Shown here: piece after piece, positions 3,302 through 11,232 of the stretch
Layout of the letters: each line of letters opens with the position of its first letter
Position numbering within the stretch: position 1 is the stretch's first letter
NCBI GenBank assembly: GCA_016180925.1
Contig: JACPAH010000004.1
Span: 1 to 35,774, forward strand
DNA length: 35,774 nucleotides
DNA from: Candidatus Aenigmatarchaeota archaeon
GTDB lineage: Archaea > Aenigmatarchaeota > Aenigmatarchaeia > GW2011-AR5
Direction of reading: 5' to 3'
Notes under the pieces: generated by a model
What the model was told of the DNA's origin: nothing
The model's database searches: none
The model's input: the letters and a program-made list of their open reading frames with translations, nothing else
Translations under genes and position numbers: made by a program

Positions 3302-3402
3302 ATGTATCGCATAAACTATTTTCCGGGAGGAGTAATAAAGGTTTGTTGCAAGAGCTGTTATCTGTCTCGAATACCTGGAGAGATTCGAACGCAGCGAGAA
3401 AG

Positions 3403-3477
3403 TTTTTGCTCGCCTAAAACAGGGGTGTTGCGGGGTTTTAGAGGATTTTTAATGGGGAATTGATAAGTGAGCAAAAA
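3403..3477. repeat. Nested palindrome at the left end of the putative cassette locus
   Basis: TTTTTGCTC (3403-3411)/GAGCAAAAA (3469-3477), with inner CTAAAAC (3414-3420)/GTTTTAG (3435-3441). Confidence 0.6.
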
Positions 3478-3483
3478 TTGAAG

Positions 3484-3630
3484 ATAACGTATGCGCTTAT
3501 ACGCAGTTTTGCGGAGCGTAGCGGAGCAAAATTTGGGAAAGCGAAGTGCAACGAGCTTTCCGTATAGTCGCTGTTATGTGCCCTGAGCGATAGCGAAAGT
3601 GCAACGTGGTTCGACGAACGAAGTGAGGAG
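3484..3630. repeat. Structured repeat copy A (multi-hairpin, attC-like by geometry)
   Basis: ATAACGTATGCGCTTAT... hairpin TTTTGC/GCAAAA, linker TTTGG, hairpin GGAAAGC/GCTTTCC, closing CGTAT, then GCCCTGAGCGATAGCG...GAACGAAGTGAGGAG. Aligns with copy B. Confidence 0.7.
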
Positions 3631-3651
3631 AAAGTCGGGCGGAGGCGGGCG

Positions 3652-4050
3652 TTATCCAATTTCTTTGACCAATTTTTCAACTAATTTTTTAATTTCATCT
3701 CTTATTTGGCGATGGAACTCCAATGATTTATCTTTTGCATCTTCAATATTCCAGAAAACAACTTTTTTCATATCAACATAATCGGGTAAATTTTCTTTTT
3801 CGGTCATGACAATAATTTTGCCAACATTTTTGACCATTTCAGGAGTAAGTTGTTTTCTGGTGTTTTTTGATAAATCATAACCCGATTCAGACATACACTG
3901 AATTACGAATGGATGCAAAGGTTCTCCCTCATGATTATCAACATGAGTTCCAGCGCCAACTGCTTTGTGCTTCTTGGATAATCTATTAAAGAAAGCAGAA
4001 GCCATTTGGCTTCTTCCAATATTTGCCCTACAAATAAAAAGCACTTCCAT
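3652..4050 (-). CDS. Low-molecular-weight protein tyrosine phosphatase / arsenate reductase-family protein
   Basis: MEVLFICRANIGRSQMASAFFNRLS (CX5R-like P-loop, LMW-PTP fold); AT-rich codons; own TATA-like ctatatataaag upstream. Confidence 0.8.
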   Translation of the reverse strand: MEVLFICRANIGRSQMASAFFNRLSKKHKAVGAGTHVDNHEGEPLHPFVIQCMSESGYDLSKNTRKQLTPEMVKNVGKIIVMTEKENLPDYVDMKKVVFWNIEDAKDKSLEFHRQIRDEIKKLVEKLVKEIG

Positions 4051-4112
4051 ATATTATTGAAAAATTAGTCTATATATAAAGTTTCTTCTAGCCCGCCGTA
4101 GCCCGATTGCAC

Positions 4113-4254
4113 ATAACGTGGCGTTATGAGAAGTTTTTGCGAAGCAAAAATTTGGGAAAATTGCGAGCAGAGCAATTTTCCTCATAACGCATGTTGGGCG
4201 GCCCGAGCGTAAGCGAGAGCGCAGCGGGGTCGAGCACCGCAGCGAAGCGAGGAG
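4113..4254. repeat. Structured repeat copy B (multi-hairpin, attC-like by geometry)
   Basis: ATAACGTGGCGTTAT..., outer stem GCGTTATGAG/CTCATAACGC enclosing TTTTTGC-GAA-GCAAAAA and GGAAAATTGC/GCAATTTTCC, then GTTGGGC, GGCCCGAGCGTAAGCG...GCGAAGCGAGGAG. Same layout as copy A. Confidence 0.75.
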
Positions 4255-4262
4255 CGGAGAAG

Positions 4263-4456
4263 TTGAAATTTGTTCTCATCCGATTTCGCAGCGTAGTTCT
4301 GAAAGAATTTCGTTTAAACATTGTTAGGATCAGCAGTGAAGCTGCTGATTTATTTTTCGCCTGTTCTGTTTAAACGAAGCGAGAAATCATAAGGATGAGA
4401 ATTGCGAACGAAGTGAGCAACCTGAAGCGACTGAAAGGAGCGAAGGCAAATTTCAA
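4263..4456. repeat. Large nested palindrome upstream of the recombinase
   Basis: Four nested arms: TTGAAATTTG/CAAATTTCAA (4263-4272/4447-4456), TTCTCATCC/GGATGAGAA (4273-4281/4393-4401), CGTTTAAACA/TGTTTAAACG (4311-4320/4367-4376), ATCAGCAG/CTGCTGAT (4329-4336/4342-4349). Confidence 0.75.
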
Positions 4457-4469
4457 TTCCGCCGCAACA

Positions 4470-4503
4470 TAATCATATCATGATTTTGGTTATGATATGA
4501 TTA
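4470..4503. promoter_or_regulatory. Perfect 12-bp inverted repeat upstream of the xerA-like gene (dif-like, operator or terminator)
   Basis: TAATCATATCAT (4470-4481) - 10 nt - ATGATATGATTA (4492-4503). Confidence 0.6.
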
Positions 4504-4539: not shown

Positions 4540-5355
4540 TTGCATTGGTTTATTATGGAAAATATGGAAAAACTCGTAAGAGAGCTGGAAATAAGGAATT
4601 TTTCCGGAAAAACCGTAAAATCTTATGTTTATTCTGCCCAGAAATTCATTGATTATGCTAAAGGCAGGAATATGGATGAGGACGCAGTAAAAGATTACGT
4701 ACAAATCCTGATAAGAAAACAAAGCCCTTCGACAGTGTCGGCTAACATAAGCGCCATAGAGTTCTTTTTCAAGAACGTTCTGGGGAAAAGGCTGGATATC
4801 AGGCACCCGAAAAGAAACAAGCCGATACCGGAAGTGCTGACAACAGAGGAGGTGAAGAAGCTAATTGGCGCGACTGCCAACATCAAGCACAGGCTTATTG
4901 TCAAAATGCTCTATGGATGCGGCCTGAGAGTCTCGGAACTCGTCAATTTAAAAAAACGGGACATGAATTTCGAGGAAGGGTTAATATATGTAAGGCTTTC
5001 CAAGGGAAGAAAAGACAGGTTTGTCAAGATACCAGATTCCGCCATAGATGAACTGGAAAGCTATTCAAAATTGGGCAGTGAAGACGTTCTTTTTGCTTCA
5101 AACAGGGGCGGAAAGCTGACAGCAGCGACCATACAGAAAATCATAAAGAATTCCTCGAAGAAGTCCGGAATAAAGAAAAATATTCATCCGCACACATTGC
5201 GCCACAGCTTTGCAACGCATCTTCTGGAGCAGGGCATTGACTTGAGAGTCATCCAGAAGCTGCTCGGGCACAGCGATATCAAAACGACACAAATTTATCT
5301 TTCAGTATCCAACCAGACAATAAAAAATGTCAAGAGCCCTCTTGATAATTTGTGA
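4540..5355 (+). CDS. xerA: Tyrosine recombinase/integrase, XerA-like
   Basis: Catalytic signatures: GCGLRVSELVNLK (R), SKGRKDRFVKIP (K), HPHTLRHSFATHLLEQG (HxxR), LLGHSDIKTTQIYL (H...Y). ATG at 4540 or 4555. Confidence 0.92.
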   Translation: MHWFIMENMEKLVRELEIRNFSGKTVKSYVYSAQKFIDYAKGRNMDEDAVKDYVQILIRKQSPSTVSANISAIEFFFKNVLGKRLDIRHPKRNKPIPEVLTTEEVKKLIGATANIKHRLIVKMLYGCGLRVSELVNLKKRDMNFEEGLIYVRLSKGRKDRFVKIPDSAIDELESYSKLGSEDVLFASNRGGKLTAATIQKIIKNSSKKSGIKKNIHPHTLRHSFATHLLEQGIDLRVIQKLLGHSDIKTTQIYLSVSNQTIKNVKSPLDNL

Positions 5356-7538: not shown

Positions 7539-8020
7539 TTCCACAAACACCCTGTTTTACCGGCTTTTGCCGCCTGCGCTGCCTCTTTCAGGGCATCGTT
7601 GTATCTGGAGTTCGGCTCAATAAAATAGAGATACGCGTAGCCTTCGCGGACAAGAAGCTCGTTCACGAATGTCCCGTTGAGGAATATGTACCGCAGGGAG
7701 CGCTTGTACCTGTCCTTGTCCTCGATATCCCGCTCGACATCGACATCCTTCTTCAGTATAAGCTCCTTCAGCCTCTCGGTGGCTTCCTTGTAACATTCCT
7801 GGCCGCGCTCCGGCGTGTCTATGCCGAGCAGGCGGACGCTTTCCCCGCTTTCAAGAACGACGGTGTCGCCGTCCACGACTCTCGTCACAAGATATGTTTC
7901 TCTTGGATGCGCAAGAGCTTCGCCGCTTACGGCATATCCCGACGGACCGGAAAGATAAAGAAATAATGCAACAGCCATCACTGCAATAACCGCAACAGCA
8001 ACCGCAATAACTGCCCTCAT
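7526..8020 (-). CDS. Thermonuclease-like (SNase) nuclease, N-terminal TM/signal
   Basis: VTRVVDGDTVVLESGESVRLLGIDTPERGQECYKEAT...; N-terminal hydrophobic anchor. Confidence 0.9.
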   Translation of the reverse strand: MRAVIAVAVAVIAVMAVALFLYLSGPSGYAVSGEALAHPRETYLVTRVVDGDTVVLESGESVRLLGIDTPERGQECYKEATERLKELILKKDVDVERDIEDKDRYKRSLRYIFLNGTFVNELLVREGYAYLYFIEPNSRYNDALKEAAQAAKAGKTGCLWNQSA

Positions 8021-11000
8021 GACGACACCTTGGATTTCTTGTCTTTAATCCTTGTGTGGTGCGGCTTTGTCCTTACAGAAAGATAAGCGACAACTGCCAC
8101 AACCACAATGCCGGCCGATATTGCAATAATTTCCACGTTCCCTATTCCTTCCGGTTCCACCGGCGCCGCGGGGCATTCGTCAACCACTGTGGCATTAACA
8201 GGGACATCACAAGTGCTGTTGTACATCACGCAGGAGCCATTGGACATCACGAAGGTCGTGGCATTGAGGCACAGGACGACAGGCTTCTCCTCCGTCTTGT
8301 TATGGGTTACATTGACCACTGGCGGCGGCTGTTCTGTCTTGTTCTGCACGGGCGTCGACGATGCGCCCCCTCCGCCACCCGAGCTGGATGATGAAGACGG
8401 CGATGAAGGGGTTGACGGCGCGCTGTAGGTGAAGGTGACGGTGCTGTGGTTTGCGTTTCCGGAAGAATCGTTGGCGCCGACGATTATCGTATTCGAGCCT
8501 GATGCCGCTATGAAAGTGACGTTCCGGCAGCTGCCAAGCGTTGAATTGCCGTCGGAGTTCAGCTTATACCAGCATGAATCAATGACGACATTGTCGCCGG
8601 CAGTGAAATTGAGGGATATGTTTGAAGATGTGTACGTCCCGGATGGCGACTGCACCCCGAGTTCTGGGGCCTTCGTGTCGTTGCCCGCCGCCGCACCGGA
8701 GAAGCCGGAAAGATAGAGGGAAGTACTGTTCGCCGACAGGACAAAGCATGGAGTGTTGTTCCTGGCCGAGTTGCATTCCGTCGTGAATCTCGTCATGTTC
8801 GGCTGCTGCGGCGTGCCGTTCATGTAATAGTATATCCTGTAGAGTCTGGGGAACGAGACGTATGCCGTGTAGTTCTCCGCAAGAAAACTGTTCAGGTTGA
8901 CCCATACGTAATCGTCCACAACGCCGCCGGCGGACGTGAAATTCGACGTGACATTGTCCAGAGTTATGTTTCTTGTGACATTGACGACATTGGAAGTGTT
9001 GGCCTGGTACCACGTGAAGTTCAATATCTCGGCGACAAGGCCGCTCGTGTTGAACCTGAATGTATAAGACTCGTCAGCAAGCACGTTGTTAATGTCGGCC
9101 AGCTGGCCCGCCGAATTGATGAAGGTAAAATTCGACGACGATGCATTTGCAGTGCTATTTATATTTTGTATGAACGACGTCTCGTTCCTCGTTATGTTGA
9201 TGAAGAGCCAGCGCGTTCCCGACATATTCACGTTGCCTCCCCTGTCCTGGAGCGTCACATTGAACGTATAATTGCCGTGAGTGAGATTGGCGGTGAAATT
9301 GGCAGACGTTCCGGACAGCGTCATGTTATAAAGGGTCCCGTTCAGGTTCAGCACCGAGGAGTTGAGGAAATCAGATGACGTTACATTCACCGTCAGGTTC
9401 CTCGTTGTGGTGAAGCTCTCGTTGTTTGGAGTGGGGCTCTGGAGGATGACAGAAGGCGGCACCAGGTCAACGCTGAAAAAGACTATGCTGGAATTCTCGT
9501 TTCCGAGGGTGTCGTTGGCAAGGACAGTTATGTTGTTTTGGCCCGTTTTAGCAATGAAAGTAATATTGCGGCATTGCGTGAGATTTGTTCTTTCATCATT
9601 GGTGGTGTTCATGAACCAGCACAGGTCGAGGCCGTTGTTCGCGCTTGCAGAGAAATTGAGCGTTATATTGGTGTAATTGTATGTCAGGTTGGAGGGCGAC
9701 GTTATATTCACGACAGGCCTTATGTCCGTGCTGAAAAATATCTGGGTGGTGTTTATGTTCCCCCTGCTGTCGTTGGCGGAAACGTTTATTTCATTGAAGG
9801 CATCGATGGCTGCTATAAATGTTATGTTGGTGCAGCCCAGGCTGATGTTCGAGCCCGTCGAATTCGTATACCAGCACTTGTCGAGGGATATCTCATCCCC
9901 AACGGTATAATTTATCGATATGTTTGTGGTGAAATAGGTCTGGTTCACCGGGGACGTCACGTTTATCGAGGGCGCCTTCGTGTCTATGTCAAGGAGGGCC
10001 GCAAATATGTTTATCCTGGTGAAGTTGAGCTGCGTGACAGTATCCTGTATGAGCCGCCCTGTCCTGTTGAACGCGTCGAGTATGGCCGAAGGGAGCATTA
10101 CAGTCCCGTTCTCCAGGCGCTTGTACTGCCGTAAAATAGCGAAGGCGCCAGAAACGTGCGGTGCTGACATCGAGGTTCCGCTGTTTGTGGTGACGCCTCC
10201 TGCAACGCTGAGGGACGTTATGACGGAGCCCGGAGCCAGGAGGTCGAGGGCAGCCGCCCTGTTGGTGAAACATGATATAACGTCGGCCGCCGTCGTTGAG
10301 TCGGTGCACGAAGCCGATGACCATGTTTTTGAGCCGACATCGGCATCGTACACGGAGCCCACGGCGGTCGCATTTTTTATGCAGGCTGGGGAAGACATGA
10401 TGCCGCTCGTGTCGCCGTTGTTCCCCGAAGCCGCTATGATTGATATGTTATTGAACGTGGCGTTGTTTATGGCGCCTGTCAGGTTGACCTCGCCGGCGCC
10501 GCCGTCAAAGCTGGCGTCGCAGAATCCCGAATACCTGTCCGACGTCCCGAGGCTCATGCTTATCACCGATATGTTGAACAGAGTCGCATTGTTGGTGCAC
10601 CAGCGCATGGCGGACTCGACTTCCGCCATCGTCCCGGCGCCGCCGGTGGAGTTGAAAACGCGCATCGACACTATACTGGCGCCCGGGGCGACGCCCCTGT
10701 AAGTCCCGTTCATGGAAGCGGCGATGCCGGCAACGTGGGTACCGTGGCCGTATGTATCGTTGAAATCCGTGTTTTCCGCCGTACAGCTTTCGTTGGCGCA
10801 ATAATTATAGCCGCCTATGACCTTCCCTGAGAGGCTTGGGTGGGAAGCATTGACACCGGTGTCTATGACGCATATGGTTTCGCCTGTGCCGTTGATTTTC
10901 GTCCCGGTCACGGAAAAGTTCCACACCGAAGTGGCGTTCACAAGCGGCGCCGATTCCGCCAGAAAAGGCACGACTATAGGAACGAGAGTAACGCTGGAGA

Positions 11001-11232
11001 CGCCGGGCGAGTTTTTCAGCTCCTCAAATTCATCCATGGTGACAGCGGCTATGAAACTGCTGTCCGAGACGTTCCTTATCTCCTGTATTCCGACGCTGCC
11101 AACGGCATTTTCCGTTACTATGACCTTCACTATTTCCCTTTCCTCAAAGGCGTCCTCTATATCCGGGTCTATGAAAGCCAGGGAAGTGTTGGATACCAAA
11201 ATGATAATGACCGCGACAAAAAAGACTCTCAT
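8017..11232 (-). CDS. Subtilisin-like (S8) surface protease with repeated Cys-containing beta domains, low-complexity stalk and C-terminal TM
   Basis: CVIDTGVNASHP, GHGTHVAGIAA, GTSMSAPHVSGA triad motifs; signal peptide; three 'CWY..(S/N)..C(R/T)N(I/V)TFIA' repeats; STPSSPSSSSSSGGGGG stalk; C-terminal TM plus basic tail. Confidence 0.93.
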   Translation of the reverse strand: MRVFFVAVIIILVSNTSLAFIDPDIEDAFEEREIVKVIVTENAVGSVGIQEIRNVSDSSFIAAVTMDEFEELKNSPGVSSVTLVPIVVPFLAESAPLVNATSVWNFSVTGTKINGTGETICVIDTGVNASHPSLSGKVIGGYNYCANESCTAENTDFNDTYGHGTHVAGIAASMNGTYRGVAPGASIVSMRVFNSTGGAGTMAEVESAMRWCTNNATLFNISVISMSLGTSDRYSGFCDASFDGGAGEVNLTGAINNATFNNISIIAASGNNGDTSGIMSSPACIKNATAVGSVYDADVGSKTWSSASCTDSTTAADVISCFTNRAAALDLLAPGSVITSLSVAGGVTTNSGTSMSAPHVSGAFAILRQYKRLENGTVMLPSAILDAFNRTGRLIQDTVTQLNFTRINIFAALLDIDTKAPSINVTSPVNQTYFTTNISINYTVGDEISLDKCWYTNSTGSNISLGCTNITFIAAIDAFNEINVSANDSRGNINTTQIFFSTDIRPVVNITSPSNLTYNYTNITLNFSASANNGLDLCWFMNTTNDERTNLTQCRNITFIAKTGQNNITVLANDTLGNENSSIVFFSVDLVPPSVILQSPTPNNESFTTTRNLTVNVTSSDFLNSSVLNLNGTLYNMTLSGTSANFTANLTHGNYTFNVTLQDRGGNVNMSGTRWLFINITRNETSFIQNINSTANASSSNFTFINSAGQLADINNVLADESYTFRFNTSGLVAEILNFTWYQANTSNVVNVTRNITLDNVTSNFTSAGGVVDDYVWVNLNSFLAENYTAYVSFPRLYRIYYYMNGTPQQPNMTRFTTECNSARNNTPCFVLSANSTSLYLSGFSGAAAGNDTKAPELGVQSPSGTYTSSNISLNFTAGDNVVIDSCWYKLNSDGNSTLGSCRNVTFIAASGSNTIIVGANDSSGNANHSTVTFTYSAPSTPSSPSSSSSSGGGGGASSTPVQNKTEQPPPVVNVTHNKTEEKPVVLCLNATTFVMSNGSCVMYNSTCDVPVNATVVDECPAAPVEPEGIGNVEIIAISAGIVVVAVVAYLSVRTKPHHTRIKDKKSKVSS

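Follow-up and report, generated by a model that had tools for sequence, protein, structure and literature searches.

The window analysed here, a 35,774-nucleotide stretch of a Candidatus Aenigmatarchaeota archaeon genome (assembly GCA_016180925.1, contig JACPAH010000004.1, positions 1 to 35,774), contains a tyrosine recombinase gene on the plus strand and, pointing away from it on the minus strand, a perfect inverted repeat, a gene-less unit, a folded repeat (B), a gene for a low-molecular-weight phosphatase/ArsC-like protein, a second folded repeat (A) and a further short unit without a gene (Table 1). The contig also carries archaeal-type genes (TYW1, Elp3, ThrRS). In the same genome (81% complete), the 16S rRNA gene (contig C9, 2376-6382) spans about 4 kb for 1478 model positions, suggesting large introns or insertions.

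Table 1. Features of the locus, in window coordinates. R1 and R2 are the covariance models built from 6 and 104 sites, respectively; ^ marks the inferred cut; G060 is a genome of the same genus.
Feature	Position	Strand	Description	Support
Cassette 3	3357..3487	-	Short, no gene; ends at a decayed terminal site with R'' GACAGATAAC (3357-3366); host sequence follows and is shared with G060	R'' matches R' of A apart from one base; 89.5% host identity resumes at 3371
Site A	3480..3582	-	attC-type site; R'' GCACATAAC (3573-3581), R' G^TTATCTTC (3480-3488); inferred cut between 3488 and 3487	R1 83.9 bits (a seed site), R2 77.0 bits; R'' of A is the exact complement of R' of B, 9/9
Cassette 2	3488..4116	-	One gene followed by its attC (A)	Same cassette in G060 with a different attC in front of it; 83.7% over 644 nt across the cassette and its flanking site
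Outer-stem arm, end of cassette 2	3635..3650	-		Inverted-repeat search
Cassette gene	3652..4050	-	132 aa, low-molecular-weight phosphatase/arsenate-reductase-like	Pfam LMWPc E 3.5e-17; TIGR02689 E 2.1e-16, below its equivalog cut-off
TATA-like box	4070..4080	-	TTATATATAG, about 20-30 nt before the ATG of the cassette gene	Read from sequence
Outer-stem arm, start of cassette 2	4091..4106	-		81% complementary to 3635-3650
Site B	4109..4202	-	attC-type site; R'' CCGCCCAAC (4193-4201), L''/L' stem GCGTTATGAG/CTCATAACGC (4121-4130/4181-4190), hairpin 1 GGAAAATTGC/GCAATTTTCC (4155-4164/4172-4181), linker CCCAAAT, hairpin 2 TTTTTGC/GCAAAAA, R' G^TTATGTGC (4109-4117); inferred cut between 4117 and 4116	R1 77.7 bits (a seed site), R2 73.6 bits; L''/L' stem and hairpin 1 both 10/10 complementary
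Cassette 1	4117..4467	-	About 350 bp, no gene, ending in site B; outer-stem arms 4447-4465 and 4254-4272	Arms 84% over 19 nt; R'' of B (CCGCCCAAC) matches GTTGCGGCGG at the attI junction apart from one bulged base
Second hairpin element	4309..4378		YGYTTAAC...hairpin...CTAACAN(1-3)GKTTAARCG	Shared by gene-less first cassettes in three genomes
attI-like site	4470..4503	-	Perfect 12-bp inverted repeat around 10 nt, then ATG^TTGCGGCGG (cut between 4468 and 4467)	Single copy in the genome at up to 3 mismatches
Tyrosine recombinase	4555..5355	+	XerA-type, proposed integrase; ATG 4555, the ORF can start at TTG 4540	Pfam Phage_integrase E 2.7e-47; NF040815 XerA 257 bits over cut-off 220; TIGR02249 IntI 210 bits under cut-off 265
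Serine protease	8017..11232	-	Subtilisin-like, 1071 aa, outside the finding	

An earlier note had described A and B as two diverged direct repeats whose stems differ in sequence while pairing is kept, and had inferred selection on structure (ssDNA or RNA) rather than on primary sequence. We first checked this description by inverted-repeat search and folding. Every stem is present: those of B (Table 1), GGAAAGC/GCTTTCC and TATACG/CGTATA in A, and the two TTTTGC/GCAAAA hairpins with the linker ATTTGGGAAA. The coordinates given were about right, although the sites proper are read on the minus strand, and the shared GCCC(T)GAGCG... tail is the 3' end of each cassette just before the site. B folds far better than shuffled sequence (DNA z -4.0, RNA z -3.4). 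By contrast, A in its present array context does not (DNA z -0.15), because its outer boxes belong to two different cassettes (see below). The note did not recognize that the two repeats bracket a cassette, nor that a recombinase and an attI-like site lie beside them.

To obtain homologues, we turned to the recombinase. Rfam and tRNA scans gave nothing, a DNA search of the window's own genome returned only A and B plus a 19-nt chance match, and an exact linker pattern gave, besides the window, only hits across the phylum that look like chance, in other sequence. Recombinase homologues led to the same arrangement in G060 and in three other genomes of the phylum (G071, G078 and G119). Six sites were used to build the covariance model R1, which finds the element in 54 of 156 genomes of the phylum, often in series; R2, built from 104 sites, finds it in 62. 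A scan of named genomes with the recombinase, from which the window's own genome was left out, returned mostly other phyla, and R1 found no site beside the eleven of those loci that were checked. Read on the minus strand, each of the two repeats has the anatomy R''-(YYAAC)-A-L''-hairpin 1-CCCAAAT-hairpin 2-CTTC-L'-ATAY-G^TT(R').

We then determined whether the predicted pairs covary. In the six-site alignment, 12 of 26 pairs showed two-sided changes, with a covariation score of 0.421 against 0.141 +/- 0.035 for shuffled and at most 0.103 for slid alignments. Over 104 sites, 22 of 26 pairs did so, with 607 double-change cells against 214 +/- 13 shuffled and at most 112 slid. Note that the 104-site alignment was fitted to the model and thus leans towards the structure, while the six-site alignment was an independent MAFFT alignment, although the structure was drawn from those same six sites. 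Selection on structure, as inferred in the note, is therefore supported. A one-base bulge improved pairing by two or more in only 1 of 85 sites, and these sites thus lack the extra-helical bases in L'' that are typical of canonical attC sites (PMC2727003).

If the element is an attC-type site bounding cassettes, the outer box R' of a site should pair with R'' of the next site. For 81 sites, we searched for the exact reverse complement of R' 100-2000 nt downstream and found it in 16 cases, against 1 upstream and 1 for a shuffled target; each of the 16 is followed by an attC start. Among 43 cassettes (median length 893), the sense ORF is longer than the antisense one in 34. TATA-like motifs lie within 45 nt of the ORF in 19 of the 43, albeit without a computed background rate, and we infer that the cassette between B and A carries its own archaeal promoter. 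By eye, cassette genes upstream of the recombinase in G078 include those for a 2H-phosphoesterase-like and a DUF262-like (restriction-type) protein. The second hairpin element of the gene-less first cassettes, whose role is unknown, recurs in two further genomes (loci L016, about 2440-2515, and L026, about 290-365).

To locate the junctions, we compared cassettes shared between genomes. The ArsC cassette lies in G060 behind a different site, with 17/60 identity before G^TT and 60/60 after it. Similarly, a 1092-bp cassette is the first of three homologous cassettes in G152 and the last in G146, two genomes of different genera; it is 97.7% identical over 1113 nt, and homology starts at the same G^TT (16/60 before, 58/60 after). 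Other cassettes are shared between different families of the phylum, at 82% (G125:C63 and G147:C58, where C denotes the contig) and 85% (G061:C3 and G105:C9) nucleotide identity, suggesting transfer between lineages. In a single case (G074:C26), the contig breaks off right at the GTT of the attI-like site, as expected if different cassettes follow in the population. An excess of sites near contig ends was weak (9 observed, 4.5 expected).

The two ends of a cassette also pair in an outer stem beyond R''/R': the first ~30 nt behind R' pair with a stretch about 45-95 nt before R''. The mean score was 10.7 within true cassettes and 7.0 for mismatched ones (0 of 20000 permutations); in an earlier run, a score of at least 10 was reached by 62% of adjacent pairs, 14.5% of random pairs and 12% within one array site. 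Joining cassette end to start in silico improved folding in 20 of 21 cases on each strand, the bottom strand averaging -36.5 and the top strand -31.4 kcal/mol. This explains why A looks weak in the array, where its halves belong to different cassettes. We found no such outer stem in the integron papers read, but a control on two IntI loci found no attC by simple pattern, so that canonical cassettes were represented only by the published statement of 9-11 nt R pairing (PMC2727003).

We next examined the recombinase. It scores as XerA above cut-off and as IntI below, and matches P. abyssi XerA (4A8E) end to end without the IntI insertion. Against VchIntI4 (2A3V), it aligns in two pieces, leaving residues 179-241 of IntI unmatched against 19 residues, i.e. 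about 44 residues without counterpart. Motif spacing is 59-66 in the array-adjacent enzymes and 106-107 in two bacterial IntI-like enzymes used as controls. None of the 156 genomes has an IntI above cut-off, hits being split around the missing domain. The recombinase lies next to the array in the window, G060, G071, G078, G119 and others, with the first cassette starting at G^TT behind an inverted repeat, and equivalents of the attI-like site lie next to the recombinase in G071, G078, G079 and others. Genomes sorted by hand showed that recombinase and sites co-occur (32/47 genomes with the recombinase have sites, against 30/109 without; Fisher p 2.9e-6). However, 30 genomes have sites but no recognized integrase of this type (MAG gaps or cassette clusters without one) and 15 have the recombinase but no detected site. 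In a tree, IntI and XerA-like enzymes group apart from a set of other Xer-like enzymes, and the array-adjacent recombinases fall in at least three branches, so one dedicated integrase family is not shown.

Taken together, these data make it very likely that A and B are attC-type sites of a chromosomal integron-like cassette array worked by a XerA-type enzyme, although no recombination, circle or ssDNA was observed. That the process is DNA recombination at G^TT is close to shown by the junctions, whereas the involvement of this recombinase, the folded ssDNA substrate (the bottom strand being likelier), the circular intermediate and the use by cassettes of their own promoters are inferred. In the cycle that we propose, the recombinase would recognize a folded single strand of the site and recombine it between G and TT of R'; two sites would recombine and release a circular cassette; and the site of the circle, in which R''/R' and the outer stem now match, would be joined to the attI-like inverted repeat or to another site, inserting the cassette in fixed orientation.

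Could a standard IntI located elsewhere in the genome or community move the cassettes, the neighbouring XerA doing something else? Cassettes without a local integrase are common in a published study of archaeal integrons (PMC9668308), an E. coli class 1 integrase recombined most archaeal attC sites tested there, and 30 genomes here have sites without a recognized integrase. We consider this unlikely, given the absence of an IntI above cut-off in the 156 genomes, the position of the XerA gene at the array head with an attI-like site in between in many genomes, and the co-occurrence of gene and sites. It is also unlikely, though somewhat less so, that XerA is the chromosome-dimer resolvase, the inverted repeat its dif site, and the cassettes parasites that borrow it. 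The enzyme matches archaeal XerA and the inverted repeat is dif-like and single-copy, but only about a third of the 156 genomes have such a recombinase, unlike a housekeeping resolvase, with the caveat that the genomes are incomplete. A double role cannot be excluded in the window's genome, where it is the only match of its kind, although another recombinase could be missing from this incomplete assembly.

Two other readings appear very improbable. Strong covariation and the RNA fold of B would also fit a structured RNA, or an RNA element at gene ends, but there is no Rfam match, and an RNA function explains neither the match of R' to the R'' of the next site rather than its own nor the break of homology inside the element at G^TT; ssDNA is thus the better fit of the two options raised in the note. 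Likewise, the repeats are multi-copy and structured and flank genes, and short ORF-less units exist (cassettes 1 and 3), as would fit the ends of a hairpin transposon or MITE-like repeat, but the outer boxes are cassette-specific and pair within a cassette, each unit has one site, behind the gene, and junctions are at G^TT.

Single-strand (attC) recombination by integron integrases is held to have been gained by acquisition of the I2 helix, and intermediates are lacking (PMC7790495). Here, arrays with full cassette logic sit next to enzymes that lack the whole inserted region, across one archaeal phylum. It is somewhat more likely than not that these XerA-type recombinases recombine folded attC-like single strands, helped by the outer stem; attC recombination would then not depend on the I2 domain, and the enzymes could resemble the missing intermediate of IntI evolution or be an independent origin. 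If the enzyme works on these sites, the current view needs revising and a natural system exists to test it. The array also adds a cassette-exchange system to small-genomed archaea and suggests why automatic tools, which ask for the IntI domain, would label such loci as clusters without integrase.

Integrons in archaea are known, and attC sites in Aenigmatarchaeota, with restricted diversity, have been reported (PMC9668308), so that some of the present sites may be in that set; the XerA-associated arrangement nevertheless appears new. With the integrons of bacteria and archaea, the array shares series of cassettes with one short gene each, the attC behind the gene, the G^TT junction, folded sites with R and L stems and conserved AAC...GTT, an attI-like site next to the integrase gene, and arrays that are reordered and shared. 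It differs in that the recombinase lacks the IntI-specific domain by which archaeal IntI is defined (PMC9668308), in the absence of an extra-helical base in L'', in the two-hairpin top with conserved CCCAAAT and CTTC, and in the TATA-like boxes inside cassettes. Since the IntI-specific domain and the extra-helical bases are defining features, we regard it as a variant that works like an integron and not as a canonical member. With archaeal XerA and dif, it shares the recombinase sequence and the dif-like inverted repeat, but here the gene is patchy and sits at the head of an array.
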